Program-made: the position numbers and the translations under genes | Virus record (IMG/VR): IMGVR_UViG_3300045110_000289 | Span: 1-46,229 of that record | DNA from: a virus | DNA: 46,229 nt | Reading direction: 5' to 3' (one strand) | Shown here: positions 11,310 through 40,800 of the stretch, in pieces | Position numbering within the stretch: the first letter of the stretch is position 1 | Layout: the number at the start of each line of letters is the position of its first letter | The notes under the pieces: model-generated | The model's input: the letters and a program-made list of their open reading frames with translations, nothing else | Told to the model about the DNA's origin: nothing | Database searches by the model: none

Positions 11310-11903
11310 TCAGCCCTCCTCGCCGGGTTCCCGGTTGGCCCCGACCAGCGCGAGCGCCCGCGGCATCGCCCGCCCGAAGGCACTGCGGCCCTCCAACGCG
11401 AAATACCGATCGCGGGCGGCATACCACCGCACGAGCTCGTCGCCGTGGGCCCAATGCCCCACCGTCACGACCTGGTTTTTGGGCGGGCAAAACGCCCGCT
11501 CCGGCTGACTGTTTTCCGGCGTGAAATCTGGGACAAATCGCAACGGTTTTTCCGTCACATTTGCGGCCTGGCAGAGCAGACAACTACACGGCACGTCTTC
11601 GTAGCGCAGGGCTTCAGCCCGCAGATACTCGCGCGCTTCCTCGGCGCCCATCCACCGCACATCCACCGCGATCGAGGTCTTCGCGGGCAGCGCGGCGAGC
11701 CAGTCGGCCGGCTTCGGAAAGGACCGGGACGAGGTGATGCAGACCTTCGCGGCGGCGAGCACTTCGTCGAGCGTCCAGCCCTGGAGCAGCTTGAAGTAGG
11801 TCGCCGCTAACTCCTCCCGTTCTGCGGGTTTGAGGCGCAATCGGAAGGTCTGCACGAGCCGGTAAAACGCCGTGTCGAATTGCGGACGCTCGTCGAGGGT
11901 CAT
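11310..11903 (-). CDS. Probable replication accessory protein (helicase-loader-like)
   Basis: The 197-aa protein has an N-terminal helical half (FRLRLKPAEREELAATYF, KLLQGWTLDEVLAAAK, SSRSFPKPADWL). This spacing resembles phage helicase-loader or G39P-type proteins, in which a helical bundle ends in F-P-x-P-A-x-x. The C-terminal half has CSCLLC, possibly a metal site. It follows the replication-initiator-like gene at 11903-12460, with which its ATG overlaps (ATGA). The loader role is inferred and is the weakest part of this call. Confidence 0.5.
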   Translation of the reverse strand: MTLDERPQFDTAFYRLVQTFRLRLKPAEREELAATYFKLLQGWTLDEVLAAAKVCITSSRSFPKPADWLAALPAKTSIAVDVRWMGAEEAREYLRAEALRYEDVPCSCLLCQAANVTEKPLRFVPDFTPENSQPERAFCPPKNQVVTVGHWAHGDELVRWYAARDRYFALEGRSAFGRAMPRALALVGANREPGEEG

Positions 11904-17046: not shown

Positions 17047-17310
17047 TCACGCGACGTCCGTCTGCGGCACGATGCGCAGCGGCTTCGGCCGGCGCAGATT
17101 CGCCAAGCTATTGGGATGGCCCGCCGCGCCGCCGCCCCGCCGGGGCGTGTCCTTCCGGACCTTCAACGCGCGATCGAGATCGGCCTTGTTGACCGTGCCG
17201 TTGGTCCGCTTCACGATCCCGTGGGCCTTGCGCCACGCATACCAGGCCTTGACCGTTTTGCAGCCGACGTAGGCGCGGGCCGCTTCAGAGTTGAACCAGG
17301 TTTCCTGCAT
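17047..17310 (-). CDS. Helix-turn-helix protein (MerR/excisionase-like)
   Basis: The 87-residue protein has a winged-helix-type opening, NSEAARAYVGCKTVKAWYAW (residues 7-26), then a short turn with KADLDRALK. It could be a Xis-type or regulator protein. A ribosome-binding sequence GAGG lies about five bases before the ATG at 17310. As the second gene of the lytic stream behind the Cro-like gene it may be an early regulator; this is inference. Confidence 0.6.
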   Translation of the reverse strand: MQETWFNSEAARAYVGCKTVKAWYAWRKAHGIVKRTNGTVNKADLDRALKVRKDTPRRGGGAAGHPNSLANLRRPKPLRIVPQTDVA

Positions 17311-17379: not shown

Positions 17380-17601
17380 CTATGCGGCCGCGGTGGCGTT
17401 CGACGCCGGAAACAGGTCGGCCTCGGGCTTCCCTAGGACAACCGACAACCGCTCCCGCTCTTTCGGCGTCGCGTCGCGGCGCCCACGGACGATATGACTC
17501 AGCTGCGTTTCAGGGATCCCGGCGAGCTTCGCGATGCGCTTCTGTTTTTTGCGCGACTCGAAAATCGCGCTCTTCAACGCGACGTTGAACACTGGAGGCA
17601 T
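17380..17601 (-). CDS. Cro-like XRE-type repressor, first gene of the lytic operon
   Basis: The 73-aa protein (MPPVFNVALKSAIFESRK...) has an XRE helix-turn-helix at about residues 15-50 (KRIAKLAGIPETQLSHIVRGRRDATPKERERLSVVL) and no oligomerisation domain. It is the first gene of the long leftward stream, so a Cro-like role is likely. An ATG at 17613 is also in frame, but the -10 box of the promoter lies there, so the ATG at 17601 at the predicted transcription start is preferred. That makes the message leaderless. Confidence 0.75.
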   Translation of the reverse strand: MPPVFNVALKSAIFESRKKQKRIAKLAGIPETQLSHIVRGRRDATPKERERLSVVLGKPEADLFPASNATAAA

Positions 17602-17608
17602 GCCGACG

Positions 17609-17637
17609 AGCATAGGACCATCGTGCTAGCCTGTCAA
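17609..17637 (-). promoter_or_regulatory. Leftward lytic promoter with operator in its spacer
   Basis: On the minus strand, TTGACA (17637-17632) is followed by a 17-bp spacer and TATGCT (17614-17609). The -35 matches consensus fully and the spacing is optimal. The operator-like site at 17613-17628 fills the spacer, so a bound repressor would block polymerase. A start about 8 nt after the -10 falls on the ATG at 17601, giving a leaderless transcript. Confidence 0.8.
17613..17628 (-). promoter_or_regulatory. Operator-like site OA
   Basis: Read on the minus strand this is TAGCACGATGGTCCTA. It matches the site at 18399-18414 (TAGCACGACCGTCCTA) in 14 of 16 positions. Both are imperfect palindromes with half-sites TAGCAC and GTCCTA around a 4-bp centre. 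It lies inside the leftward promoter. Confidence 0.75.
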
Positions 17638-17645
17638 GCAATTTA

Positions 17646-17661
17646 TAGCACGATAGTTTTA
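17646..17661 (+). promoter_or_regulatory. Operator-like site OB
   Basis: TAGCACGATAGTTTTA shares TAGCACGAT and the GT and final TA of the shared pattern. Its first nine bases are also the perfect reverse complement of 17620-17628 in OA, a 9-bp inverted repeat. It lies between the two divergent starts. Confidence 0.65.
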
Positions 17662-17690
17662 CTCTCGAATCCTGACGTGCTAACCACGCG

Positions 17691-17706
17691 TAGCACAATC
17701 GTTTAC
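17691..17706 (+). promoter_or_regulatory. Operator-like site OC
   Basis: TAGCACAATCGTTTAC keeps TAGCAC and the GT at the second half-site. The preceding GTGCTA (17677-17682) is a further half-site in inverted orientation. The site covers the -35 position of the weak rightward promoter before the CI-like gene, as in a lambda-type OR region. Confidence 0.6.
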
Positions 17707-17718
17707 GACGATCTTTCG

Positions 17719-17724
17719 TATGAT
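17719..17724 (+). promoter_or_regulatory. Weak rightward (PRM-like) promoter, -10 box
   Basis: TATGAT is a good -10 box, with no recognisable -35 at the proper distance, where OC lies instead. The GTG start of the CI-like gene begins seven bases after it, so transcription from here would again give a leaderless message, as for lambda cI from PRM. A promoter with a weak -35 beside an operator is the usual setting for repressor activation. Confidence 0.55.
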
Positions 17725-17730
17725 GCCAAG

Positions 17731-18297
17731 GTGGAGAGCGTCGCGGCGGATTTCGGCGTGCGGTTGAAAGCCCTGCGGTTCAAGCTCGGGTTTTCGGAGC
17801 CGGCGGCCGTCGCCGTCAACGTCTACGGCCCAGCGAAGACCGCCCAGAAGGACCGCACGAAACTCGTCAACTACCTGCTGAGGATCGAGCGCGAAAACAT
17901 CAGCGTGGGGTTCAACTACTTGCCCCGGCTCGCGAAGGGGTTGAACTTCCCCACGGTCTCGGCGTTCGTCCAGGCGATCGAGCAAACGCCCCCGGTCGAT
18001 CCCGAGAAGAATGCCTTGCCAACGACCCCTTCGGAGAAGCACAATCCGCCTTTACACTTCGAGAAGGCGGCCGCTCATGATCGTGCCGATGCGCCCTCCC
18101 CCGTCGACTTTGCCAGCCTCGAACGCGTCAACTACGGCCTCGCCGAGCAAATGCACGTCTCGACCACGCAGATCATCGAAGCCATCAACGGCCTTGGCGA
18201 AAAACTGGCGGATCGCCTCTCGCCTCTTGCACCAGCTCGAAAAAAGCCGGCCAGTCGTCGCCGCGCTCCTGGTGAGCGGACTACAAAAACAGCTTGA
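17731..18297 (+). CDS. CI-like lysogeny repressor (divergent HTH)
   Basis: The 188-aa protein begins at GTG 17731 (VESVAADFGVRLKALRFKLGF) and has a divergent XRE-like helix-turn-helix in the N-terminal 80 residues, ending with LPRLAKGLNFPTVSAFV. The rest is Pro/Ala-rich with a helix (SLERVNYGLAEQMHV) and a basic tail. It lies opposite the Cro-like gene with operators between and faces the integrase, so a CI role fits. No peptidase (S24) domain is visible, so SOS cleavage is not obvious. An in-frame start at 17494 would overlap the Cro-like gene and was rejected. Confidence 0.65.
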   Translation: MESVAADFGVRLKALRFKLGFSEPAAVAVNVYGPAKTAQKDRTKLVNYLLRIERENISVGFNYLPRLAKGLNFPTVSAFVQAIEQTPPVDPEKNALPTTPSEKHNPPLHFEKAAAHDRADAPSPVDFASLERVNYGLAEQMHVSTTQIIEAINGLGEKLADRLSPLAPARKKPASRRRAPGERTTKTA

Positions 18298-18361
18298 GCG
18301 GGCGGTGGCCATGCCGCGCCCGGTCCTTCGCGTCGTGCCGCGCTCGTCACGTCGCCTCGCC

Positions 18362-18377
18362 TAGCACAGACGTCCGC
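18362..18377 (+). promoter_or_regulatory. Operator-like site OD
   Basis: TAGCACAGACGTCCGC keeps TAGCAC and GTCC of the 16-bp pattern. It lies 22 bp upstream of site OE, before the integrase-operon promoter. It is the weakest match in the second half-site. Confidence 0.5.
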
Positions 18378-18389
18378 GCAAGAAATAAC

Positions 18390-18418
18390 TTGACGATGTA
18401 GCACGACCGTCCTATCGT
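18390..18418 (+). promoter_or_regulatory. Rightward integrase-operon promoter with operator in its spacer
   Basis: TTGACG (18390-18395), a 17-bp spacer and TATCGT (18413-18418) form a promoter. The operator OE lies within the spacer, as in the leftward promoter. The GTG at 18426 is eight bases past the -10, at the expected transcription start, so this message would also be leaderless. Confidence 0.7.
18399..18414 (+). promoter_or_regulatory. Operator-like site OE
   Basis: TAGCACGACCGTCCTA is the best match to OA (14 of 16). Its position in the promoter spacer implies that the same repressor controls the integrase operon and the lytic operon. Confidence 0.75.
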
Positions 18419-18425
18419 GACGATC

Positions 18426-18704
18426 GTGCGTGGTTCCCCACCGACCGACTATCCCCGCGACGAGATCTGCCGGATGGCGGATGCCGCGATCGAACGGCAT
18501 GGCGGGCCGACGGTCGCGCGCGTCTACTTCAAATTCACCTGCGCGTCGTGCGGCGAGCGGTGCACATTCCTCGAGCCCAACGCGCTCTACGCGACCGGTG
18601 AATGCGACACCTGCGGGCACATCACGACGATCGAGAAGGCGGGGTTCTCTCTCCTGCTCTCGACCACCGGCGAGCCGTTGACGTCGCAGTTAGGCGAGAG
18701 CTGA
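18426..18704 (+). CDS. Zinc-ribbon protein, first gene of the integrase operon
   Basis: The 92-aa protein (from GTG 18426) has CASCGERC and CDTCGH, a C-x2-C zinc ribbon around residues 38-61, and LSTTGEPLTSQ at the end. GTG 18417 in the same frame would start inside the -10 box, so 18426 is preferred. It may be a regulator or an adaptor; no function is assigned. One base separates its stop from the next ATG. Confidence 0.6.
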   Translation: MRGSPPTDYPRDEICRMADAAIERHGGPTVARVYFKFTCASCGERCTFLEPNALYATGECDTCGHITTIEKAGFSLLLSTTGEPLTSQLGES

Positions 18705-18705
18705 G

Positions 18706-19137
18706 ATGGCCGACCTGCTCCCCACCCATCACTGTTTCGACGATGCGCTCGAATTCATCGCCGAGCGCGTCAAAGAATCGCCGTCGCTGGCGCACGACAC
18801 GGCGCTGATCCTCGTCCATGGCATCGCGCGGGCGACGAGCGGTCCGCACGTCGGCGAGCTCTACGCGCACGCCTGGTGCGAAGAGGAGGGCCATTGTTGG
18901 GACGCGGCGTTGCTCGATGGCCAGCGGATCTACTACAGCGTGGCGCGTGAGGAGCTCTACGCCGCCCGGCAGGTCGAGGACGTCACGCGCTACACCATCC
19001 AGCAGGCCTGCCTGCTCAATCTCGGCACGCGGCACTACGGGCCGTGGGTGCCGCGCTACCGATCGCTGTGCGGTGGTGTTCGCGTCATGGGCGCCATTCA
19101 GGCGGACGCCTCACACGCCACGATCATCCAGCGCTGA
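18706..19137 (+). CDS. Hypothetical protein between zinc-ribbon gene and integrase
   Basis: The 143-aa protein has LILVHGIARATSG near residue 35, HAWCEEEGHCWDAALLDGQRIYYSVAREELYAARQ in the middle, and LLNLGTRHYGPWVPRYR near the end. Many conserved-looking aromatics and Cys/His pairs suggest a compact domain, but I recognise no family. It is in an operon with integrase, whose ATG overlaps its stop (TGATG). Confidence 0.55.
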   Translation: MADLLPTHHCFDDALEFIAERVKESPSLAHDTALILVHGIARATSGPHVGELYAHAWCEEEGHCWDAALLDGQRIYYSVAREELYAARQVEDVTRYTIQQACLLNLGTRHYGPWVPRYRSLCGGVRVMGAIQADASHATIIQR

Positions 19138-20333
19138 TGGGCGTCTACCAACGCGCCGACTCACCCTACTGGTGGATGCACGTCGAAACCGCGCCGCCCG
19201 GGCACCGTAAGGTCTCGACAAAGGTCCGCATCGGATTCACGCCCACCGAGAAAAAAGCCAGCCTGGAGGAAGCCAAGGGCGTCTATCACGAGGCCGAGCT
19301 CGACGCCGGCAAGGTGCGCAACGGCCGTCCGGTCGAAACCGATCCGATCCCGTTCACGAGGTGGGCGGCCACCTACGAGGAGCAACTGCTGCCGAAGCGC
19401 CGCGGCGCGTATCGGGAACGCCAGATGCTCCCGCGCCTCGTCGCCGGCTTCGGCGACCTCGCGATCGACGCGCCCGCGCAGGAGTGGGTCGCCCGCGCGA
19501 CGACCTGGCGGGAGACACGCCTCCGCACCCCGACGACGGTGCAGCACTACGGCGGCAAGCACGGCAAGCCGCATACGTTCCCGCGTCCCAGTCCGCGCAC
19601 CGTCAATCGGGAAGTCGGCTTCCTCCAACAGATGCTCTCGGCCGCCGTCGACGCGAAGCAGATCGCGCAGTCGCCGCTCTGGGGCTTCGCGGACCTCGAG
19701 GCGACGCCGGTCAAACGCCGACTCACGCCGCACGACGAGGAGACGCGCCTCCTCGCGATGCTCGCGCCCGACGATCGCGCGATCTATCTGATTGCCCGCG
19801 ACGGCCTGGTGCGCCTCGGCGATTGTCTGGACGCGCGCCGGCCCGACGATGCCGGCACGACGCTCTACATTCCGCACACGAAGAACGGCGACCCCGTCAC
19901 GATCCCGATCACGTCGCGCCTGCGCGTGGCCCTCGATGCCGTGCCGGTCGATCCCGATCACCCCGAGTGGTTCTTTCCCCGGCGGCGCCGCGCCAAGACG
20001 GACCAGGCGCGCACGCGCGGCTACATCAAAGCGATCGCCCGGGCCTGCCGAGACGCCACGCCGCCGATCCCCTACGGCCGGAAAGCCGCCGGGGTAACGT
20101 TCCACTGGGGCACACGGTTGACCGGCGCGACGCGCATGATCCGCACCGGCGGCGACGGCGTGATCGCGGATGTGCAGAAGATCGGCGGGTGGAAGGACGT
20201 CAGCGTGCTGCTCGAGATTTACCAGCAGACCGTGACGGAGGACATGCAGCGGATCGCTGAACTCGCGAGCGGTCCGCCGGCGCCGAAGCCTGCGCCCGCA
20301 CCCGCTCCGCGCCGCCTCCGGCGGGTCAAATAG
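19137..20333 (+). CDS. int: Tyrosine recombinase (phage integrase)
   Basis: The 398-aa protein has an N-terminal SAM-like arm/core-binding region and a C-terminal catalytic domain. Catalytic residues seen are R226 (GLVRLGD), K249 (HTKNGD), H323, and Y362 (LLEIYQQT), with GGWKD before the Tyr. The usual H-x-x-R-H box reads HWGTR (H323, R327), so the second Arg is one place later than normal. It integrates DNA at the attP lying just after its stop. The ATG at 19137 overlaps the upstream gene's stop; a longer frame upstream was not used. Confidence 0.9.
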   Translation: MGVYQRADSPYWWMHVETAPPGHRKVSTKVRIGFTPTEKKASLEEAKGVYHEAELDAGKVRNGRPVETDPIPFTRWAATYEEQLLPKRRGAYRERQMLPRLVAGFGDLAIDAPAQEWVARATTWRETRLRTPTTVQHYGGKHGKPHTFPRPSPRTVNREVGFLQQMLSAAVDAKQIAQSPLWGFADLEATPVKRRLTPHDEETRLLAMLAPDDRAIYLIARDGLVRLGDCLDARRPDDAGTTLYIPHTKNGDPVTIPITSRLRVALDAVPVDPDHPEWFFPRRRRAKTDQARTRGYIKAIARACRDATPPIPYGRKAAGVTFHWGTRLTGATRMIRTGGDGVIADVQKIGGWKDVSVLLEIYQQTVTEDMQRIAELASGPPAPKPAPAPAPRRLRRVK

Positions 20334-24713: not shown

Positions 24714-27700
24714 TTACTTCGCCGCCTTCGGGGGGCCGAAGAGGAGCGCGAGCGGGTTATGGGTCGTGCCGTGCTCGAGCGCGACGAAGCCGTCGACGGT
24801 GCGTTGCACCTGCGCTGAGGGATAGCGGAAGAGGATCCCAGCCGCCGCATTCGTCGCTTTCCAGAACGCCGCGTCCGCCTCGCCCTGGTGGATCTGCTGC
24901 GCGAGTTGCGTCACGAGCGTGATCGGCCGGAGCGCCGCGGGCCCTTCATAGCCGCGCGTGCCGGCCTCGCCGCCGGTCGCGATCTTGGCCGCGCCGGCGA
25001 GCTCGCGCAGCCCGACCATCATGTTCATCGTGTCGCCGAGGATCTGGCCGCCGACGTTCTGCAAATACGCGGGCCAGTCCTGACAGGTCGTCCGCGTCGC
25101 ACAGCGGAGGCCTTCGGTCGCGAGCGCCGGCAGGATTGTGAGCAGCGAGAGATGCCCGAGGAACGTCAGGACCTCCGACGGCTTCGCGAAATCCGTCGCA
25201 CTCGCCCGCTCCGCCGTCGCGTTGTAGACGGTGTTGCCGTAGCTGTAGAACGTCATGAAGAGCTTCGCGACGGCGCTGCCGCGTTGCACCTGGGCGAGAT
25301 CTTTGATCTGCCCGCCGCCCTGCGAATCGAGCACGCCCTGGTCGGCGAGCGCGATCGCACGCGCTTCGTCGTTCCCGGCCGCCATCGCTTTCTCGTAGCC
25401 GCCGAGCCACGTCGGAATGTCGGCGACGCGCTGCGCGATCCCGATGTGCCACAGGTAGCCGTCGAGAATCGTCTGCTGTGTCACGTGATCGCCGCTGACC
25501 GTGCGGACGGCCTGGTCGAACCAGCCGCCCGGTTGCCGAAGCTGCTGCCGCAGGTCGTGCAGATCTTGCGTCGCGGTCGACACCCGCGAGCGCATCATCG
25601 GCGAGACCTCAGCGATCCAGGTCGCGGTGTGCTGCATCGTCGCCGCGTCGCGCAGCCAGCGCTTCATGCCGCGCGCCACCCACACCGGCCCGACGCGGCT
25701 CATGCCGTTGAAGAGGCCGAGCGGCTGCTGCAGCGCCGTCCAGAGATTCCAGCCCATGCCGGCGATCTGCGTGCGCGTGCGGAGGAAGGTCGCCGCGGTG
25801 TCGAGCACGCCCGGCTGGCCCGCGCCGGCCGACGAACCGAGCGCGAGGTCCTGCAGCATGCTCGTGAACTGGTCGTAGAGGAGATCGCCCTTCGTCGCGA
25901 GCACCTTCGTCTGATAGAGCGCCTCCGAAACTTTGCTGTCGCGCAGCAGCCGCGTCGTATCGATCAGCATCTCGTGATGCGTGAGGTCGTGAATCACCTG
26001 GTCGAGGTGCGCGAACGCGACGCCGAGATCGAGCTTGAGCGGCAGCGTCACGTTCTGCACGCGCGCCTCGACGTGGCCGCGCTTCGTGGTTGTGCGGACG
26101 TAGGCGGCCGACGTCGCGAGCTTCGCGTCGGTCGCGGCCACGTGTTGCCCGGCGCGCGCCGCTTTCCGTCCGTCGTAGGCCAGCGGATAGTAGCCGCCGG
26201 CGAGCTCGCCGAACTTGGTGGTGACCGGCAGCGCCTCGACCTTCTCCGGCGTGAGCCCGGTCAGCCGCTCTTGCTTGGCGGCGATCTCCGGCCAATATGT
26301 ATTGAGGTAGTCCCAGGTGGATTGGACAAACGTCCAGTCACGCTCGTCGAGCGTGTCGAGGATCGCGCCGACCTGCTGGGCGTTCACCTTCAGCCGTGGG
26401 TCGGCGAGGATGCGATCGCGCGACGTCTGGTTGCCCCAGTTGAGCGCGATGGCGAGGCGTCCTTCCTTTGACAGGCTCGCCTGAATCGCCGGGATGAACC
26501 GCTTCTCGTTCAGCGTGCCGAGCTCGCGCCCCGGATACGCCGTCTCGAGGATCGCCGTGTAGGCGGCGCCGGCGTCCTGCTTGCGCACCTCTTCCGCGTC
26601 CGCGGCCGCGTTGATCGGGCGGATGAACGCTTCCCACATCGGCCCCCCGTCGACGTGGCCATCGAGCGCGCGCGCGAGGATCGCGAGCTTGGTATGCGAC
26701 GCGAACCAGCGCGACACCTTGCGCCATTTCTCGTCGCCCGGCCGGAACTCGAGCGGCACCGTCTGGAGATCGTGGTGCTCGCGGATCGAGGCGACGAGCC
26801 CATCGCGCACGACGGCGAAGTCGCGCTCGTCGACCGCTTTGAGCAGCGTGTTCTTCAACTGCGCCAGGTGCACGAGCGCCTTCAGGCCGTCCGTCACGCC
26901 GACGAACTGCTCGACCGTGAGCTCCTGATAGTTGACGTGCCGCGTGTCGTCGAGGAGTGCCTCGGGGAGATCCACCGGGAGGCCTTGTGACTCGAGGCCC
27001 TCCACCCACTTGCGCATCGAGACCAGGCGATCGAGCACTTTGGGCGAGGCCTTCGCGAAGCTGTAGCGGTCGAGCACGCCGTCCCACTGATCGAGGTAGC
27101 TGCCGCCGGCGAGGCCGAGGCGGGCGCGGGCGGCGGTCCTGTTGTGACTCTCGACCCAGGCGGCGCGGTCGGTCACGTCGTCTTTCGCGCGGGTCGCTTC
27201 GCGCGCCAGGGCCTCGTTGAACAACTGCTGCTGCTTCGAGACGATCGCCTGATCGAACTCCTGCCGAGCCGCTTGCTCAATCGCCCGGACGCCCGCGTGC
27301 CGGGCGGCGCTCGCGAAGACCTGCGGGGTGAGGGTGCGGACTGTGGCGCCGGCGATCCGTTGCTGGGCGGCGTCGCGGAAGACCGACGCCGGCGGAATGC
27401 CGCCGCGAATCGTGGCCGCGCCGCCGCGCGCCTGTGCCTTCAGCGCACTGACTTCGCGGTCGCCAAACGCCGCCGTCGCGCGCACGGCGCCCTGGCCTTC
27501 CCGCTCAGCGAGGCGCACATGCGGGGTTACGGTGCGTTGGAGTTTCCGCAGCGCCTTCATCTCCGCGCGCACGATCGCGTCCCGATCCTCGTCCGCGACG
27601 GCCGCGTGCGCTGACTCGCCGAGCGTCCCGTCGAGCAGTAGGGAGCCGTGCTCCGCGAGCATCCGGCGCGTCGTCTCCTGCTCGATCGCGGCCTTCATCG

Positions 27701-30700
27701 GCGGCGCCTGCGCGACCGCGGCGAGCAGCTCGTCGCCGCTCGAGAAGCCAAACATCTCCGCAACGAGATTCGGATCGACGCCCTCCTCGGACGTGGTGTA
27801 GACGTAGGGCCGCGGCAGTGACTTGAGGCGCTCCTTCCCGTAGCGGTCGACGATCAGATCCTTCGCGAGCTTCAAGGGGCCACGCACCGCGTCGAGCGCC
27901 TGATACACCGGCTGCGCTTGCGTCTCGCTCGTGACGATGGCCTGGATCGCGTCGCGCTGGGTTTTCCAGATGGCCGTCTGCTCGCGGCGGACCTCGGCGA
28001 GGAGTTGCTGATCGAGGCGCTCGCGGGCGGTCCGGTTCGCGTCGGTGATCGTCTTGGTGTAGAGGCTGAACTCGGCGTCGCTCATGCCGGCGGACGCGGC
28101 CGTCGTGAAAAGCGCCGGGATACCGCGCGAGGCCTCGGCCTCCGCGATCGCCTGGTCGCTGGCGAGCAACCGGTCGAGGATCGCGCGGACCTCGGGCGTC
28201 AACTTTACGTTCAGCTTCGTCAGCGAGCCGTAGACGCCGACCAGCCAGGCGCGGAAGCGACTGAACGCGGCGCGCAGGCCGACGCTCGGCGCTTTCCCCT
28301 CGAACAGGTAGCCTTCGAACTCGCGCGCCCACTGCTCGTGATGCTCGCGCGTGATGGCGTCGCGGCTCTCGACGCCGAAGCGCTGGAGCGTCGCGCCGTA
28401 GTCGGCCAGGACCTTGCGCTGCGCGTCGGTGAGCGTCGACGGGTCGCGTTGCGTCAGGACGTCGGCGGCATCGCCGAACACCTCGAGGAAGAAGTGTCCC
28501 ATCTCGTGCAGGAACGTCGACGGGTCGGCTTTCTCGAGCAGGCTGATCGTGAACTGGTGATCGGCGCCGAAACGGATCGAGCCGCGGCGGTCCGGCGCGC
28601 CGGTCGGCGGAGCGGCGACGGCGGTTTGCAGGAATTCTTTCCGCTCGGTCGCTGTGACGGCGGTGCCGTCCTTGTGAGTGACCGTGACGATCGAGTCGTC
28701 GAAGACGACGACGTTGTGGGATCCGTCGCCGGCCTGCCGTGAACCTTGATCGAGATAGCGGATGCCAGGAATGCCCAACGCCTGCAACGCCGCCGACGCC
28801 GCCGCCCGCTCCTGCTCGACCGGCACGTTCGAACCCGTCTGCCAGCCGACCGCTTGATCGCGGAGCGCGGCGTAGGCGCTCTTGCCGGTGGCCTGCGAAA
28901 CGTCTTTCAGTGTGGTGAACTCCTCGTCGATCGACCGCTGGACGAGCGGAATCAACGCGCGCTGGATCGTCTCGCTCTGCTCCGACAACGGTGCGTCCCA
29001 ATCGAGCATTGTCGCGATGTGCTCGTCGGGAATGTCGACCTGGTAGAGAAACCCCTTCGACTCAGCCTGCTCGAGCCGGCCGGCGAGCGCGTTCCAGTCC
29101 TTCGTCCACGTCTGCCATTGCTTGTCGGTGGCGTGGCTCTCGCGGTAGGCGTCGCCGAGCGATTGCTGAATGTCGCGGTCGTTGAGGCGAAGATTATTGG
29201 CCTCGACGGCGGTCAACATCTCACGCTGCGTCTTCGTCAGCCGGGCTTGCTGCCAGGGCTTGCCGTTGATCGTGAGCGCGCCCGCACGGGCTAGATCGCG
29301 CTGATATCCGCCCGCGACGTCCTGGTTTTCCGCGAAGTAGAGCCCATGGCCGAACGCCTGCGCGCCCTCGCCCGTTCCGATCTTCTCGCTACTGAACCGA
29401 TCAAAGTCATGCGGCGATCCGTGGTAGAGCGCCTGAAACAATTCGTCGAACAGCGCGCCGACCTTCGACGCGTGCTTCGTCGGCGTCCCCTTCTCGCTCG
29501 TCAACGCGAACGGCAACGCAAATTCCGGCGTCGCGATCTCCTGCTCGCGCACGCCTTCGGTCCCGGGCAACACGGGCTGCGCCTCGCCCGGCGCGGTCTC
29601 GTCCTTCGGCCCCTGATGGAATTCCGTGACGTCGAAATCGACCGGCCGCCACGAGTCACGCCACCACGCGACGCGCTCGTCCATCCGCACGTCGGCTCGC
29701 AGTTCGTCGGTGCCCGGCAGGCCTCGGAGGTTCGGCGGGTTCCGGATGATCTCGTCGAGTTGGTCGAACAGGATGTTGACGTTCTCGATCCAGGCGAAGC
29801 GCGGATCCTGCTGCAACCGTTGCTGCATGACGTCGAACGGCAAGCCCGTGATCGGCCGGCCCGCGCCGTCCTTCGCCGTGGCCGCGCGAAACACCTTCCC
29901 CACGCCGGCGACGGCGCCGAACTTCAGCCCGCTCTTGAGATCGGCGAGCTCGCCGCGCCAGCCCGACGACGACTCTTCGTTGAGACCGCCGTTGTCGGCG
30001 ATCGCGCGCAGCAGATCGAGCGGATCGTGCCCGCTGTCCTGGTAGCTCTCGTTGAGGTCCTGCCAGGCGGCGAACCGGAAATCGAATTCCGCGCGGAGGT
30101 CGACCGGGTCGACGGTCGGGTCTAGGGTTTGGGCGGCGTCGTGGAAGTGGGTAAAGAGGCCTTCGACATGCTCGGCTTCCCGACGGGCCCTCTGGGCCGG
30201 ACGCTCGCGCTCTCGCGGGAAGCTTGGCGCAATGCGGTTCCGGGCAGGGCGCCCTTCGCCACCAGCTCCGCTGCGCGTTTCAGATTCGGCGCCATCAGGA
30301 CCCTCACTCTCTGCGGTTGCGGCCGCGGTGTCAAGTCGGGCGGCGGCGCGGGTCTCCATCGCCTGCGCCCGCAACTGCTCGCCGTTCAGCTGGGCGGCTT
30401 CGTCCGGCGTCTCCGGAATCGCGATCCCCTGCGCCGCGAGTTCGCCGGCCGACACGGTCGAGCGATCGGAAGGCCCGCCGACGATGTTGTAGAGCGGGCC
30501 GGACGGGCCGTGCCCCAGGAACGTCGCGGAGACAGGATTGGCCTGCACGTCACCGCTGGCGGTGATCGCCTCACCGGCGGGCTGCGTGTCAGCCGGCAGG
30601 GGGGTCTCGGCCAGCGCAGGACTTGAGGCTTCCGGCGCAGCACTTGGAGCCTCTGAGGGCGTTTGTGTAGCGTCCGGAGGACGTTCCTGCAGCACCGCCA

Positions 30701-32672
30701 GGTCCGGTCGCACCACGTCGAGGCCGTAGTTGTGCCGGGCCTGCAGATCGATCCCGGTGCGTTCCGACAGGTTCGAGACCACGTCCGCGAGCTCGGCGTA
30801 GGCCGACGCCTGCGAGGCGGGCACCCCGGCCGCGACGAGGCGGGACTCGACCGCGGTCCGGAGTGCGGAGACCGCCGGGGCGTCGGCGGTGGCGAGCGGT
30901 TCAGCCGCGAGCTGCTTGGTGAGCGCCTCGAGCTCGCGGCCGTTCATCGCCTCCGGGTCGAGACGCAGCTCGTTGACGAACGCGGCGTTGTGCTCGGTGG
31001 GGGCGATCTGCGTCACGTAGCGCGCGGTCGGGATCGGGAGGTCCCCGCCCGACTGGGTCGCGAACGCGTAGGCCTCAGGGCTGCCGGTCAGCTCGGCGGC
31101 CTTCGTCGCCGGGTCGACGCCCTTCGATTGCCAATACTCGTTCCAGTGCTCGAGCGGGGCGTAGAGGGTCTCGGCGCCGCCCTTCGTGGCGGAGGCGATC
31201 AGGGCTTCGATGGCCTCGGGGCTGCGCGGGATCGTTTTGGATTCGGCCGCGTCGGTGCCGAGTTTTTCGACAAAGCGCACAGCAGCGTGCGTGCTGATCG
31301 TCTGCGCCCCGATCGCTACGAGGGTGCTGATGGCCGTCGCCGCCGCTGCTGATGGGCGCGCATCGAGATAGTCCTGGAAGGTCTTCTCTTTATTGGACGG
31401 GAGCGCGAACCACTCACCGAGGTCCTGCAGGACCGTCGCGACTTCCTCGCCGGGGATCTCGCTCGCGATCTGATGCGCGAGCAGTTTCACGAACGGCGCT
31501 TTCGCGGCCAGGTCGCCGAGCAATTTGTGCGCCGGGATGAACTCGGTGGCGACTTCGACCGCGCCCTGGAAGGCGGCGAACGCAGCGGCCTTGTTGACCG
31601 GCACGCCTTCGGCCCGCGCTTGCGCATAGGCTTGCCCGCCCGTCGTGAGGCCGGCCAAGCCGAGCAGCACGGTCGAGCCGCCGCCTGTTGCCAGGCTTAA
31701 CGCGACCCCGGGCGCTTGCTGCACGAACGATTCGAGCCCGCTGTAGATCGACTGCTCGACAAAGCCCGCGCCCGGGCGCGGGCCGCGGCTGCGCTCCGCC
31801 AGGTGCTCGGCGACGGCAGCGCTCGCGGTCGCAAACGCGGCCACCCGGGCGAACGCGCCCGGCACCGGCGCGACGAACGTTTCGCCCTCCCACCGTCCGC
31901 CGTCGAGCGCGCCCTTGGAGTATTGCGACTCGACGGAAAACGTCGGATGCCCGTGCTGCTTGAACGTGTCCGGAAAGTGATCGACGCCGAACTGCATCGG
32001 CGTGCCGCCTGTCGCCTTGAAGTAGCCGCGATAGTCGTAGTGGCTGTCGGGGTGATCGACGTCGGTGATCTGGTTCGTGGCGGCCCACTGCTGAAATGCG
32101 GTTTCCTCCGGCGCGGTGAGGGTCGTAATTTCCGGGGCGCGGCGATCGAAGGCGGCGTAGTCCTGCTGCGCCTGCAGGCTGAGTTCCGCGCCCGCTTGGA
32201 TCGCGCCCCAGAGACTCTGACCGAGGCTCGCGATCCCCGCCGGCGCGATCCCCGCGAGATTCCGGCCGATGCGTAGCGTGTGATCCATCGCGGTCAACGG
32301 CCCGAGGTCGTCCTTCGCGATCGCGACGTTCGCCGGATCGTCGGCCAGCCAGGCGCCGAGGGTCGGATGATCTCGGCCCGCTGCCGCGACGTCGTCGGCC
32401 TGCGCCTGTGCCTGGTAATGCGGCAACTTGCGCGCGATGAGGGCGGAGGGAATCCCGTAACGCAACGCGAGTCGGCGGGCCTCGGCCGCGGCGTCTGGCG
32501 TCAGATCGCTGGAGGCTCTCGCCGTCTGCCGGAGCGTCGTGTCCTGCGCGGCCTGCCGATCGACGAGGAGATCGTGCGCGTCGTCGTAGAGCGTGCGGGG
32601 CTTCGCGGCCGGCGCGGCCTCCGGCACCGGCGCGAGTTGCTCGAGCGCCTCGTCGTAGAGGTTGCTCGCCAC
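24714..32672 (-). CDS. Giant ejection (gp16-like) polyvalent protein with ART-like and zincin modules
   Basis: The 2,652-aa protein begins at GTG 32672, overlapping the preceding stop (TAGTG). Domains in order: N-terminal helical part; a segment with HYDYRGYFKATGG and HFPDTFKQHGHPTFSVES near residues 205-250; an Ala/Gly-rich, membrane-like region (~290-420); an ADP-ribosyltransferase-like domain from about residue 1083 (YHGSPHDFDRF, GHGLYFAEN); a zinc-metalloprotease-like box HEMGH near 1390; then long coiled coils and a hydrophobic C-terminal region (GWNLWTALQQPLG). Position after internal proteins marks it as the largest ejected core protein. Longer start at 33065 overlaps the preceding gene and was rejected. 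Confidence 0.8.
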   Translation of the reverse strand: MASNLYDEALEQLAPVPEAAPAAKPRTLYDDAHDLLVDRQAAQDTTLRQTARASSDLTPDAAAEARRLALRYGIPSALIARKLPHYQAQAQADDVAAAGRDHPTLGAWLADDPANVAIAKDDLGPLTAMDHTLRIGRNLAGIAPAGIASLGQSLWGAIQAGAELSLQAQQDYAAFDRRAPEITTLTAPEETAFQQWAATNQITDVDHPDSHYDYRGYFKATGGTPMQFGVDHFPDTFKQHGHPTFSVESQYSKGALDGGRWEGETFVAPVPGAFARVAAFATASAAVAEHLAERSRGPRPGAGFVEQSIYSGLESFVQQAPGVALSLATGGGSTVLLGLAGLTTGGQAYAQARAEGVPVNKAAAFAAFQGAVEVATEFIPAHKLLGDLAAKAPFVKLLAHQIASEIPGEEVATVLQDLGEWFALPSNKEKTFQDYLDARPSAAAATAISTLVAIGAQTISTHAAVRFVEKLGTDAAESKTIPRSPEAIEALIASATKGGAETLYAPLEHWNEYWQSKGVDPATKAAELTGSPEAYAFATQSGGDLPIPTARYVTQIAPTEHNAAFVNELRLDPEAMNGRELEALTKQLAAEPLATADAPAVSALRTAVESRLVAAGVPASQASAYAELADVVSNLSERTGIDLQARHNYGLDVVRPDLAVLQERPPDATQTPSEAPSAAPEASSPALAETPLPADTQPAGEAITASGDVQANPVSATFLGHGPSGPLYNIVGGPSDRSTVSAGELAAQGIAIPETPDEAAQLNGEQLRAQAMETRAAARLDTAAATAESEGPDGAESETRSGAGGEGRPARNRIAPSFPRERERPAQRARREAEHVEGLFTHFHDAAQTLDPTVDPVDLRAEFDFRFAAWQDLNESYQDSGHDPLDLLRAIADNGGLNEESSSGWRGELADLKSGLKFGAVAGVGKVFRAATAKDGAGRPITGLPFDVMQQRLQQDPRFAWIENVNILFDQLDEIIRNPPNLRGLPGTDELRADVRMDERVAWWRDSWRPVDFDVTEFHQGPKDETAPGEAQPVLPGTEGVREQEIATPEFALPFALTSEKGTPTKHASKVGALFDELFQALYHGSPHDFDRFSSEKIGTGEGAQAFGHGLYFAENQDVAGGYQRDLARAGALTINGKPWQQARLTKTQREMLTAVEANNLRLNDRDIQQSLGDAYRESHATDKQWQTWTKDWNALAGRLEQAESKGFLYQVDIPDEHIATMLDWDAPLSEQSETIQRALIPLVQRSIDEEFTTLKDVSQATGKSAYAALRDQAVGWQTGSNVPVEQERAAASAALQALGIPGIRYLDQGSRQAGDGSHNVVVFDDSIVTVTHKDGTAVTATERKEFLQTAVAAPPTGAPDRRGSIRFGADHQFTISLLEKADPSTFLHEMGHFFLEVFGDAADVLTQRDPSTLTDAQRKVLADYGATLQRFGVESRDAITREHHEQWAREFEGYLFEGKAPSVGLRAAFSRFRAWLVGVYGSLTKLNVKLTPEVRAILDRLLASDQAIAEAEASRGIPALFTTAASAGMSDAEFSLYTKTITDANRTARERLDQQLLAEVRREQTAIWKTQRDAIQAIVTSETQAQPVYQALDAVRGPLKLAKDLIVDRYGKERLKSLPRPYVYTTSEEGVDPNLVAEMFGFSSGDELLAAVAQAPPMKAAIEQETTRRMLAEHGSLLLDGTLGESAHAAVADEDRDAIVRAEMKALRKLQRTVTPHVRLAEREGQGAVRATAAFGDREVSALKAQARGGAATIRGGIPPASVFRDAAQQRIAGATVRTLTPQVFASAARHAGVRAIEQAARQEFDQAIVSKQQQLFNEALAREATRAKDDVTDRAAWVESHNRTAARARLGLAGGSYLDQWDGVLDRYSFAKASPKVLDRLVSMRKWVEGLESQGLPVDLPEALLDDTRHVNYQELTVEQFVGVTDGLKALVHLAQLKNTLLKAVDERDFAVVRDGLVASIREHHDLQTVPLEFRPGDEKWRKVSRWFASHTKLAILARALDGHVDGGPMWEAFIRPINAAADAEEVRKQDAGAAYTAILETAYPGRELGTLNEKRFIPAIQASLSKEGRLAIALNWGNQTSRDRILADPRLKVNAQQVGAILDTLDERDWTFVQSTWDYLNTYWPEIAAKQERLTGLTPEKVEALPVTTKFGELAGGYYPLAYDGRKAARAGQHVAATDAKLATSAAYVRTTTKRGHVEARVQNVTLPLKLDLGVAFAHLDQVIHDLTHHEMLIDTTRLLRDSKVSEALYQTKVLATKGDLLYDQFTSMLQDLALGSSAGAGQPGVLDTAATFLRTRTQIAGMGWNLWTALQQPLGLFNGMSRVGPVWVARGMKRWLRDAATMQHTATWIAEVSPMMRSRVSTATQDLHDLRQQLRQPGGWFDQAVRTVSGDHVTQQTILDGYLWHIGIAQRVADIPTWLGGYEKAMAAGNDEARAIALADQGVLDSQGGGQIKDLAQVQRGSAVAKLFMTFYSYGNTVYNATAERASATDFAKPSEVLTFLGHLSLLTILPALATEGLRCATRTTCQDWPAYLQNVGGQILGDTMNMMVGLRELAGAAKIATGGEAGTRGYEGPAALRPITLVTQLAQQIHQGEADAAFWKATNAAAGILFRYPSAQVQRTVDGFVALEHGTTHNPLALLFGPPKAAK

Positions 32673-34432
32673 TACCGAGCCTTCTTGCGCGTCTGGATAT
32701 TGAGATAGAGATCGAGCACCGTCGAATCGCTGACCGGCTGCCGGTGCTCGCGCAGCGCGCGCTCGAGATCGGCGCGGTCCGTGGGGCTGATGTCGGCGAT
32801 CGTCGTGTCGAGCAGTGCTTTCCCAGGCGTCGCGCTGTGCCAGCCTTGCGATTGGAAGAACATCCCGAACCACGACGACCCCGGCGTGCCCGGAGTTCCC
32901 TGGCTGAGCAGATCGTCCACGACGCCTTGGATGTCGGCGTTGGTGACCTTTTTCCCCTGGTCCTGCGCCGCGGCGACGCGGAGATCGACCATCCGGAGCA
33001 GCGAGGCGCGGGCGTTCTTCTGAGCCGGTGAGTATTTCTCCTTGTCGGTCTGCGTCGTTTGCCACAGCGTGTCGTCGACGATCTGCTGATGGGTTCGGAA
33101 CCCGGCCAGGTCTTTGTCCGCCGCGGTCTTGTTGCCGGTGCGGATGTCGAGTTGCATCTTCGCGAGCTGTTTGAACTCAACCTGATCGAGCTTTCCGCGA
33201 TATTTCAGCAGGTTGTCGGTGGCGAACGCGGTCGGATCGTCGGCCGCTGTCTGCATCAGCCCGTAGTAGGTCGGGAGATCGGTCTCGACGCCGTTCCCCT
33301 TCGTCAGGACCTCAGCATACGAGCGCAACGCTTTGCGATCGTTGACATCGAATTTGGCCCAGATCTCGGCCGGAATTTTCGTGACGTCGTGGGTGCGCTC
33401 GACCAGATTGAGCGCGCCGGCCAGCGTCGACTCTTGAGCATCGCGCGTCGCCTTCGCCGTGATGTTGGCCTCGTGCTCGATGCGTTCGAGGACGGCGTCC
33501 TGCACGTCGGGGTCGTCGATCGCTTTCGCCTTCGTGCGTTGCTCTGCCAATGAGCCGCCGGCCGCAAGAATCTTCGCCGTCTCAACTTGCGCCTTCCCAC
33601 GGGTCGTGCCAACCGCGAGCGCTTTCTCGATGTCGTCCTGCTGCGTGCCGGCGATCTGATCCTTGTTGGCGGTGAAGTAGGTGTTGGCCTGCGCCGCTCG
33701 GTCCTGCGCGATCAGGCTCTTGATCACCCCGAGGTGCGTGTCGGTCGTGAACTTTTCGGTGAGCGCCTGGGTCGCCTCCGTACCGAGCCCTTGCCGCGTC
33801 GCGAACTGCCCGATCGCGTCGACGCCGTCCTGGAGCTCGATGTGCACCTGCCGCAGGTCGGTCGCATGGGCCGCCGCCGCGTTGGTGGAGTTGCTAAGAA
33901 ACGCGTTGAATTCGCTGACGTCGTGCGCCTGCTGCTCGGCGAAGACGTGCCGCAGGATCGGGCCCTGCAGGTTTTGCCAGTGGGCGGCTTTGTCTTTGTC
34001 GCCGAAGGCGGCGCGCTGGCGATCGTTCAGCGTGCCGTCGAGCTCGCCCGTGAATTGGTCGAACGCGGCGCTCGTCTCTTCCGGGAGGGATTGCGCGGCC
34101 TTCCCTTTCCGCGCGAGCGCGCCGGTCTGCGGATCGAAGAGCGCGGCGGAGGTGAAGGCGTCGAGCTTGTTGTTGTATTCGAGCTGCGCGACTTCGTCGG
34201 CCTGGCGCTGCGCGTCGAGGTGGACCGCGCGTTGCTCTTTGCCGAGCATCTGCCCGACCTGCCCGAGGGTCTGCCCGAGCTGCCCGAGGGCGGCCGCCTG
34301 GCGCTCACCAGAGGCGCCCTTCGCGCGGTCGAGCCCGACCCCGGTCGAGAGATCCGTCTCCGCGGCCGTCTTGCGGACGCCGGGAAGCGCGGCCGTGCCG
34401 ATACGCCGGGGGCCGTAAGTCACCGTTGGCAT
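32672..34432 (-). CDS. Internal virion (ejection) protein, gp15-like
   Basis: The 586-aa protein is highly helical and charged, with TVTYGPRRIGTAALPGVRKTAAE at the N-terminus and a GASGERQAAALGQLGQTLGQ repeat-like helix, as in podovirus core proteins. It lies between the gp14-like gene and the giant ejection protein, the same order as T7 gp14-15-16. It would line or extend the ejection channel. The ATG at 34432 overlaps the upstream gene. Confidence 0.75.
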   Translation of the reverse strand: MPTVTYGPRRIGTAALPGVRKTAAETDLSTGVGLDRAKGASGERQAAALGQLGQTLGQVGQMLGKEQRAVHLDAQRQADEVAQLEYNNKLDAFTSAALFDPQTGALARKGKAAQSLPEETSAAFDQFTGELDGTLNDRQRAAFGDKDKAAHWQNLQGPILRHVFAEQQAHDVSEFNAFLSNSTNAAAAHATDLRQVHIELQDGVDAIGQFATRQGLGTEATQALTEKFTTDTHLGVIKSLIAQDRAAQANTYFTANKDQIAGTQQDDIEKALAVGTTRGKAQVETAKILAAGGSLAEQRTKAKAIDDPDVQDAVLERIEHEANITAKATRDAQESTLAGALNLVERTHDVTKIPAEIWAKFDVNDRKALRSYAEVLTKGNGVETDLPTYYGLMQTAADDPTAFATDNLLKYRGKLDQVEFKQLAKMQLDIRTGNKTAADKDLAGFRTHQQIVDDTLWQTTQTDKEKYSPAQKNARASLLRMVDLRVAAAQDQGKKVTNADIQGVVDDLLSQGTPGTPGSSWFGMFFQSQGWHSATPGKALLDTTIADISPTDRADLERALREHRQPVSDSTVLDLYLNIQTRKKAR

Positions 34433-37588: not shown

Positions 37589-37812
37589 CAGTTGATTCCG
37601 TGCTCCTCGACGAGCTCGCGGCCGTCCGCGGCATGATGGACGACGACGGCGCTGGCCTCCGGCTCTTGCTCAACGCGCGGGCCGCACCAGCACGCGCGCG
37701 TCTCCTCGTGCTCGCGCAGATCGTCGATTGGCGTGACGTGCACGTCGGGCCGGATCGTTGTGCGATCCAGCACCGGCCCCAGCCGAAGATGCATCGACGG
37801 ACGGTCAGCCAT
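37588..37812 (-). CDS. Small conserved phage protein, 74 aa
   Basis: The protein has VHVTPIDDLREHEETRACWCGPRVE and a C-terminal VVVHHAADGRELVEE. The DLREHE, CWC-x-P and H-x-x-DGRE pieces recur in small phage proteins located near structural genes. It is of unknown function. It overlaps neighbours at both ends. Confidence 0.65.
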   Translation of the reverse strand: MADRPSMHLRLGPVLDRTTIRPDVHVTPIDDLREHEETRACWCGPRVEQEPEASAVVVHHAADGRELVEEHGIN

Positions 37813-40800
37813 CAGTCCCGCCCCGTCAGCCAGTCCGGCAAATGATCATCGAGCGGCTGATGCTGCTCGCGCGCGTCGGCGAGCTTCGCGCCGCGCAGCG
37901 TCTCGCCATACATGCCCCACGCGAACCGCGCCGTCTGCGCGCGCTGCGCGACGCCCACGCGCGGCGGATCTTTCTGGCCGGTGTAATCCGGCCCGCGGCC
38001 TTCTTGCTCAGGCCGTGCCGGATCGATCAACGCGAGACTCGGCGCGAGCGACGCGGCGAGCCGCCAGGCGAGCGCTTCGCGGAAGAGATCGTCGGCGCCG
38101 GCGACGGTGCCCTCGACGCGGACGGTCACCTCGATCTGCGGATCGATCTCGTCGGTCAGGAGCAGCCCGCCGGTCCCATCGCGCGCCAGTCGGAACGGCG
38201 GCGGGTTGAGTTGAAACGTCCGCTTGCCGGCCTCCTTCACGATCCGCCGCACGAAGACGACCTCGGGGCCAAGGCGATAGCTGTAGGTCCAGTCATCGTT
38301 GACCGGCACGGTCGCCGTCCCGCCAACCAGGACGGGATCGATATAGGCGGTCGCAAACGCCCACGGATGATCGCGGAGCGTGCTGCGGAGCTCGGCCTCG
38401 AAAACCGCGCGAGCGGCCTGCGCTTCCCGCGATTGCTCACTCACCAAATTGGCAATCGTCCGTGCACCGATCCGCACGAGCCCCCGGTTGACGACGTCGA
38501 CGTTCGCGCGCGCATGGACACCGGTCTGATCGAGCGTGCCGGCGAGCGGTTCCTCGCCCGGATTGCCCGGCCGGATGATCAACGTCGCTTTGACGAGCGC
38601 TTCCTGATACTGCTTTTCGCAGTGCTCGACGATCCCGACCATGCGCGAGAGCGCCGGGGCGAAGACGCCCGCCAGTTTCCAGATCAACGCCTCGCGAAAC
38701 AACGGATCGCCGGTCGCCGCGGAGCAGTTCGGCCGGAAGGTGTATTCGAGCACCGCCCCCGGCCGGTTGGTCAGCAGGAGCCCGCCCGCCGTATCGCTGG
38801 AGAGTTGAAACGGCGGCGGCGTGGGATCGACCGCGCCCGTGCGCGGCACCGCGAGCCGGCGCTCGAACACGCAATCGGCCGGCCGGCGGTAGCTGTAGCG
38901 CCAGTCCGGGTTGAGCGGCGTCACTGACGTCCCGCCGAGGAGTGCCAAGGTGGCGTATTTCGTGGCGAAGGGCCACGGCACATCGCGCAAGACCTGGGTC
39001 ACCACGTCGGCGTAATGCATCCGCGCCTGCTCGGCGGCGGGCGAGGCTTCCGTCACCACGTCGCCGATCGGCTGGCTGATGCCGATCTTCGAGAGCGCCT
39101 GATTGATCACCAGCGTCGACCACGGCTTGCACTCGGCGCCGAAATCGGTCCCGGTGATGCCTGGCGGCGGCGGCGGGTTGCCCGGATCGTCGGGGTCGTC
39201 GCCATCGTCCGGATCGTCGGGCTCGTCATCCCAGCCGCCTGGGTCGGTGGGGACGGTGGGCGGCACCGGATCGATGTCGCCGTTACAGGACCAGCCGTTG
39301 TTGCACGCCTCGATGGTGCCGGGAATCACGAACACGTCGTAGACGATGCCCACGGCGTTCAGCGCCAGGCCGACTTGAATGGTATCGATCGCGCCGGCGA
39401 CGATGCCGGTCGAGCCGTTCAGCGTGCCGGGGAATTGATGCGAGGTCGTGCCGGTGTGTGACGGATCGCGCGTGAACGACGCCGCGTTGTGCGGGGTGAC
39501 GATCGCGAACATTGGCCGCCGGCCGCACGGCGTGAGCCCGACCGTCCGCAATGCGCTGCCGTCACCGACGTAGGTCGCGAGTTGCAGCACGCGCGCCATG
39601 CCGGGGTCGCCGCTGCCATCGTTGCGCCGGCAGGCCAGATAGGCGGTCTGCGCCAGGCTCGAGATCGAGATCCCCGGTTTGTAGGTGAGTTGGCCGAGGC
39701 CCATTGCGAGCCCGTTGGCATTCTCCGCGCCGGTCAGCGCCGACAGCGCCGCCGCGGCATGCCCCATGCCTTTGTAGCAAAGCCCCACGGTGGCATCGTT
39801 CACGCCCTCGAACAGCAGGAACACCGCTTCGGGGGTGAAGGTCGGGGAATCGAGCGGCGTGACGAAATCGGTCGCGCTGTTGGTGCAGTGGAGCGCGCCG
39901 GCGGCAAAGAACCGCAGGCCCGGATCGCCGATGGCGATCACCTGGTAGACCTTGTCGAGGAGATTGTTCTGCGCGTCGGCGCCAGCGATCCGGGCGAGCG
40001 TCTGCTGCTCGCGGCCATCCTCGACGCCGTTGCTCACGTAGGACGGGTCGAGCAGGACCTCGGCGGGCCCGAGCCCGTTGTAGTCACGATTGATCCCGTC
40101 GTGCCCGCCGTTCGCGCTCGAGAACCAGACCCACGGGCCGGTCCCGTCCGTCACGTTGCGCACCCACAGGAAGTGGATCGGGTGCCGGAAGATCAGATCT
40201 TGGAACGTGCTGTTGCCGGTGTAGAGGCCGCCGTAGATCAGGACGGGCGCGATCGGCGGCGGGCCCTTGCGCGCCCACGGGGACCGGGGATACGGCGCGT
40301 TGTGGATGCCCATCGCCGGCCGCAGCGGGGCGAGCACCGCGGGTGTCGTGTCCTCCGGTTGCCGGACGAGGTCCTCCTCGTAGAACGCGCCGACCGCTTC
40401 GACGACCGCGAACAGACTGCGGACCGTCGACTGCGACGCGCTGCTGTTCTTGGTGAACTTGAGCTCGAGCCCGCTCAGCGGGGAGATCGGATTGACGATG
40501 CCGTCCGGCAGATACGACATGCCGACCCAGCCGAGGGCAACCGCTTGCGTCACGGGGGCGTTGACATCGGCGCCGCCCGGCAGCTTGTAGCCGAGCGCGC
40601 CCGCGACCAGCGCGCCGACCTGCGAGCCGTAGCAGGCCACGCGCATCGCGACGATCCCCAGGATGCCCGGCGTTCCGTCCACCTCGCGCGCGGCATCCGT
40701 GCGAATCGACAGGACGGCGCCCGGCGTGCTCGAGGTGAGCGGCGTCAACGTGCGGAGGTCGGCCGGGCGTTGCCGGGCCAGGCGCCAGTCGCCGACCCAC

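Follow-up and report, generated by a model that had tools for sequence, protein, structure and literature searches.

A candidate immunity region of a temperate podovirus with predicted leaderless regulator messages and an integrase operon probably under a related operator

The best explanation for the region described here is that it controls immunity in a temperate podovirus whose portal protein is of the epsilon15/phiV10 type. We consider it likely that this region combines a four-site array for XRE proteins, a leftward promoter (PL), a PRM-like promoter and an integrase operon placed under a further operator, OE, and that all three messages start at, or very close to, their start codons.

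The DNA is IMG/VR record IMGVR_UViG_3300045110_000289, the whole virus record of a soil phage (46,229 bases, positions 1 to 46,229), referred to below as the window; a 127-base repeat at its ends fits a circular assembly. Among portal proteins, those of temperate podoviruses (phiV10 and Vibrio phages, for example) come nearest to that of the window, at 43-46% identity. Nearly all genes point leftward, RecT and an exonuclease among them, the rightward ones being the CI-like gene and the integrase operon (Pfam, PHROG). Rfam and tRNA scans gave no matches. Two very long ORFs between the tail and lysis genes, 24714-33065 (2783 aa) and 37812-42638 (1608 aa), probably encode large virion proteins.

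Table 1. Features of the candidate immunity region and the adjoining integrase operon (positions in the window)
Feature	Position	Strand	Description
cro-like XRE HTH gene	17380..17601	-	ATG 17601, 73 aa; opens leftward (lytic) operon
PL (leftward promoter)	17609..17637	-	TTGACA (17637-17632), 17 bp, TATGCT (17614-17609)
OA	17613..17628	-	perfect TAGNACNNNNGTNCTA palindrome in PL spacer; conserved in 4/4 phages
OB	17646..17661	+	upstream of PL -35; 33-bp spacing from OA in 4/4 phages
OF	17667..17682	-	TAGCACGTCAGGATTC; fourth intergenic site; same offset in 4/4 phages
OC	17691..17706	+	adjoins CI-like promoter, at the expected -35 place; ACAATNNGTTAC core in 3/4 phages, one variant
CI-like -10 (PRM-like)	17719..17724	+	TATGAT, without -35 consensus
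CI-like repressor gene	17731..18297	+	GTG 17731, 188 aa, N-terminal XRE HTH fold (predicted)
conserved overlapping gene	18077..18364	+	95 aa, +1 frame relative to CI-like gene
OD	18362..18377	+	doubtful; TAG is the stop codon of the 18077-18364 gene
integrase-operon promoter (predicted)	18390..18418	+	TTGACG (18390-18395), 17 bp, TATCGT (18413-18418)
OE	18399..18414	+	perfect palindrome in spacer of integrase-operon promoter
zinc-ribbon-like gene	18426..18704	+	GTG 18426, first in integrase operon; weak zinc-ribbon matches
143-aa gene	18706..19137	+	from ORF listing; no family match
tyrosine integrase	19137..20333	+	third in operon; PF00589 1.5e-8, phrog_1 integrase 2e-24

Divergent regulators and their operator array

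Two divergent HTH regulator genes with a common operator array between them, the hallmark of a lysis-lysogeny switch of the CI/Cro type, are present in the window. The cro-like protein matches Pfam HTH_3 (5.7e-6) and a PHROG transcriptional repressor family; ATG 17613 was considered as an alternative start for it and rejected, being absent from the relatives described below. The CI-like protein of the window has no Pfam match, and among its relatives an HTH was detected in one member only, at E 0.014. Its N-terminal domain was modelled with a pLDDT of ~93 as a five-helix XRE fold, and the C-terminal half as helical, at low confidence. Foldseek related the N-terminal model to C.Esp1396I, C.BclI and DdrO with a probability of 0.99 but with E-values of 0.1-0.3, and P22 c2 was also similar; the model thus points to an HTH of the XRE/Cro-CI type. 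No S24 peptidase domain was found in the CI-like proteins by Pfam or PHROG, and they appear to be built without the C-terminal S24 domain of an autocleavable repressor of the lambda CI or LexA type. As to the second gene of the leftward operon, its counterpart in the relative L006 (6271-6489) has an excisionase-type HTH_17 domain (1.6e-7), which window positions 17047-17310 resemble by eye, with no domain match.

The motif TAGCACNNNNGT has exactly five matches in the 46,229-base window, all of them inside 17613-18414, where the original prediction had placed its five TAGCAC-N4-GT sites; shuffled sequences gave a mean of 0.23 matches and a maximum of 2, and five were reached in 0/100 shuffles. 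OA and OE, which were said to agree at 14 of 16 bases, indeed differ at only 2/16, and in the window they are the only sites that match the TAGNACNNNNGTNCTA palindrome without mismatch. When leave-one-out matrices were used to scan the whole window for equal matches elsewhere, OA, OB, OC and OE each came directly behind the other three and above all sites outside the region. These four of the five proposed operators stand as candidates; the fifth, OD, was at rank 15 and has 2 mismatches to the palindrome. As OD begins on the TAG that terminates the overlapping gene, half of the OD match has another explanation, and its role as an operator seems doubtful. A further intergenic site, OF, had been overlooked. 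In the window this site is weak, but in L006 the corresponding sequence, TAGCACGGTAGGGCTA, is a strong one and reaches a score of 15.7, with controls from that genome peaking at 9.8.

A search of viral contigs with the cro-like protein led to three relatives, L006/G001 (48.7 kb), L007/G002 (12.8 kb) and L008/G003 (43.7 kb), whose cro-like proteins are 67-76% identical to that of the window and whose CI-like proteins are ~40% identical. The DNA between the divergent genes aligns with the window at 71% mean column identity. The sites cluster in the same geometry in all four phages: OA, OB, OF and OC occur at the same offsets, 33, 21 and 24 bp from centre to centre, and individual intergenic sites differ in strength from phage to phage. 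With a matrix made from OA, OB and OE, the switch sites of the relatives score 19-27, as compared to at most 11.6 in reversed-sequence controls.

Both regulator promoters are conserved in these four phages as well. Every one of them has an operator within the 17-bp spacer of a TTGACA/TATNNT promoter, with the cro-like ATG 7 nt after the -10 (the three relatives read TTGACA-17-TATAGT at the place of PL), and the CI-like -10, which reads TATGAT, TATGAT, TATAAT and TATGCT, is followed after 6 nt by GTG, GTG, ATG and GTG, respectively. The comparison thus supports a leaderless-type geometry that both regulator promoters share across the four members known. The three relatives, and no others, were recovered when viral contigs were searched with alignments of Cro, CI and the overlapping gene product and with the promoter-operator DNA pattern, and bacterial genomes with Cro and CI; the DNA pattern had 13 other matches in viral contigs, all in unrelated contexts. 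Since the three relatives keep the core of the switch, we conclude that the design is real, and the divergent HTH/HTH switch with a common operator set, as originally proposed, is supported.

An integrase operon probably under a similar operator

The second promoter of the original prediction, TTGACG-17-TATCGT rightward, is present like its leftward counterpart TTGACA-17-TATGCT, each with an operator in its spacer; OA and OE each fill the spacer and cover two bases of the -10. Thus, an immunity operator would overlap the promoter of the integrase operon, as judged from the window. The proposal that the integrase is under this operator needs to be qualified in that the integrase is the third gene, preceded by a zinc-ribbon-like gene and a 143-aa gene whose stop codon overlaps the integrase ATG (19137). 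Over 41 nt, this promoter repeats the PL region in inverted orientation, with 73% complementarity.

The promoter around OE looks well formed, as a feature of the window phage only and without support from comparison: the three relatives have neither OE nor its promoter and module, and the integrase that follows their CI-like gene is a different one. It is this restriction to one phage that speaks for another view, namely that the same switch operates without the integrase operon, which would be regulated mainly by the Cro-like protein or host factors, and that OE and its promoter resemble PL either by convergence or because the module brought PL-like DNA with it. However, the genome has just two perfect palindromes, OA and OE, which are placed in exactly the same way, and we find this alternative rather unlikely. 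We prefer to see the operon as part of the switch, and the window phage would then show how an unrelated integrase module, having acquired a copy of the lytic promoter and operator, may come under the control of an immunity repressor.

As for the first gene of the operon, homologues in L009-L011 match its residues 31-84 at 43%. The gene could start at ATG 18474 instead of GTG 18426; the L011 homologue is similar upstream of that ATG (by eye), which favours the GTG start.

Predicted leaderless starts and the proposed switch

A promoter scan of the region found 3 promoter-like sites against 0.4 expected. The start codons do lie close behind the -10 hexamers, as first noticed, with gaps of 7 nt (ATG 17601), 7 nt (GTG 18426) and 6 nt (GTG 17731). 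When both strands of the window were scanned for ORFs of at least 50 aa opened by ATG or GTG, a TAnnnT -10 at 5-8 nt before the start codon was found in four places, three of which are the genes of the switch region; the place that scores best for this arrangement in the relatives is the cro-like locus. Transcription from a sigma-70 promoter is expected to start ~6-7 nt beyond the -10; mRNA ends at, or adjoining, the start codon are thus the natural prediction, and for both regulators the prediction of leaderless mRNAs is a strong one. This part of the proposed leaderless placement is backed by the geometry of all four phages. It is not so for the integrase operon: its promoter is absent from the relatives, so that the leaderless start at GTG 18426, predicted in the window, rests on one sequence. 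A strong SD is found at the candidate start of 15-33% of the longer genes in these phages, as compared to 3-6% in controls, and the leaderless design is therefore not due to a genome-wide shortage of SD sequences.

It might be argued that the messages are not leaderless after all, either because transcripts begin further upstream or because the spacing between -10 and start codon reflects operator and coding constraints; the leaderless starts are indeed predictions only, made from promoter calls that are consensus matches. Yet the 6-nt (CI-like) and 7-nt (cro) spacings are kept in 4 phages in spite of a CI that has diverged to ~40% identity, and cro is preceded by no other promoter in the window scan. 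We regard this objection as having little chance of being correct.

In the leaderless switch that we propose, PL would drive the Cro-like protein and early recombination genes leftward, and the PRM-like promoter the CI-like repressor and the overlapping gene rightward. Dimers of one or both XRE proteins would bind the array of OA, OB, OF and OC, and a protein on OA would cover the PL spacer and so block this promoter directly. With a -10 only, the PRM-like promoter probably needs a protein bound upstream. In the window phage alone, the second module downstream, that of the integrase, would be transcribed from a separate PL-like promoter whose spacer holds OE. In a lysogen, one repressor would most likely shut off the lytic genes and the integrase together, and induction would release both; all three messages would begin at, or 1-2 nt from, the start codon. 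The binding, the repression, the 5' ends and the roles of both XRE proteins are what we infer from the sequence. Activators of the lambda CI type usually have their operator centred at -42. Counted from the predicted CI-like start, the centre of OC is instead at ~-33 in the window and at ~-36 in the relatives, and positive autoregulation of the CI-like gene is thus a guess. Tentatively, one may go further and imagine that every promoter under repressor control (lytic, lysogenic and integrase) makes a leaderless mRNA and that the entire choice among lysis, lysogeny and integration thereby depends on a separate form of translation initiation, in a phage that partly uses SD sequences, the integrase having joined via a copy of the lytic promoter-operator; such a generalization is possible, but we do not hold it to be probable.

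In the OR region of lambda, the repressor and Cro genes diverge, the sites are 21-24 bp apart, the repressor gene is leaderless and its promoter has no good -35; lambda int depends on CII acting at PI rather than on a CI-type operator. The window phage resembles OR (PRM/PR) in its divergent repressor and Cro-like genes, its operator array and a repressor promoter without a good -35; it differs in that the Cro-like gene is also predicted to be leaderless, the operators lie in 17-bp spacers and no S24 domain was found. Another similar system is PY54, an N15-type telomere phage with divergent cI and cro, a 16-bp palindromic operator and, by RACE, leaderless mRNAs of both genes (PMC4488713). A phage with two leaderless switch genes is therefore already known, and the novelty originally claimed for a leaderless lytic regulator was overstated; in the window phage, leaderlessness is predicted only. 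In PY54, however, Cro binds a single site and no integrase promoter is under the same operator, whereas in the window phage OE adds to four intergenic sites, and the CI is unrelated, with no peptidase domain recognised in it. Leaderless HTH repressor genes of mobile elements, as predicted here, are also those of PaaR2 of CP-933P (PMC8630535) and of SetR of the SXT/R391 ICEs, which has an S24 peptidase domain (PMC4542580), but in both systems leaderlessness is reported for the repressor only. Epsilon15/phiV10-type podoviruses (Uetakevirus) share with the window phage a portal that is 45.6% identical over 86% of its length, a RecT-type recombination gene and an integrase; phiV10 differs in its annotated repressor region and gene order.

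What seems new is that a copy of the lytic promoter-operator would govern an integrase operon which is likewise predicted to be leaderless: our literature searches, with most subscription papers outside their coverage, turned up no case of an immunity operator combined with a leaderless start at an integrase operon. If the 5' ends are as predicted, leaderless initiation is conserved in both arms of the switch in a small phage family rather than being a peculiarity of one repressor gene, and the role of leaderless translation in the balance between repressor and Cro becomes testable.

A conserved gene overlapping the CI-like 3' part

The last ~220 nt of the CI-like gene are shared, out of frame, with the gene at 18077-18364. 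Downstream of CTT 18193, the +1 frame is 57% identical among the phages, above all synonymous shuffles of frame 0 (0/5000), and the conservation of frame 0 there is accounted for by the +1 frame (645/5000). The start region of the +1 frame at 18077 is conserved too (MIVPM, MLLPF, MLVPF and VLLIP, MLVPF-like; 0/5000 shuffles), and GGAGG stands 6 nt upstream of the start in G002 and G003.

The sharp switch of frame conservation at a conserved rare CTT codon in 4/4 phages would also be expected if +1 ribosomal frameshifting at CTT 18193 extended the CI-like protein, with no separate overlapping gene. We think this improbable, as a conserved start belongs to the +1 frame itself, preceded by a good SD in two relatives, and CTT 18193 as a shift site lacks a slow codon or stop; literature searches gave no precedent bearing on frameshifting in a prophage repressor. 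With its own conserved start region, the +1 frame is better read as a separate overlapping gene.

In the relatives, this gene is found at 37776-38165 in G001, from 11785 in G002, and on the reverse strand of G003, near its end. The product has a helical core, LAxxWxxASRLxxxLExxRPVVAxLLVxGLxKQLE. Rare CTT codons (4-7% of Leu) at 18193-18195 and 18291-18293 are kept in all members available, and the latter preserves the TGA stop of the CI-like gene. Within the CI-like gene, where the overlapping gene starts, operator-like sites are also seen, at 37766-37781 in G001 and 11775-11790 in G002 (scores 13.5 and 14.2).
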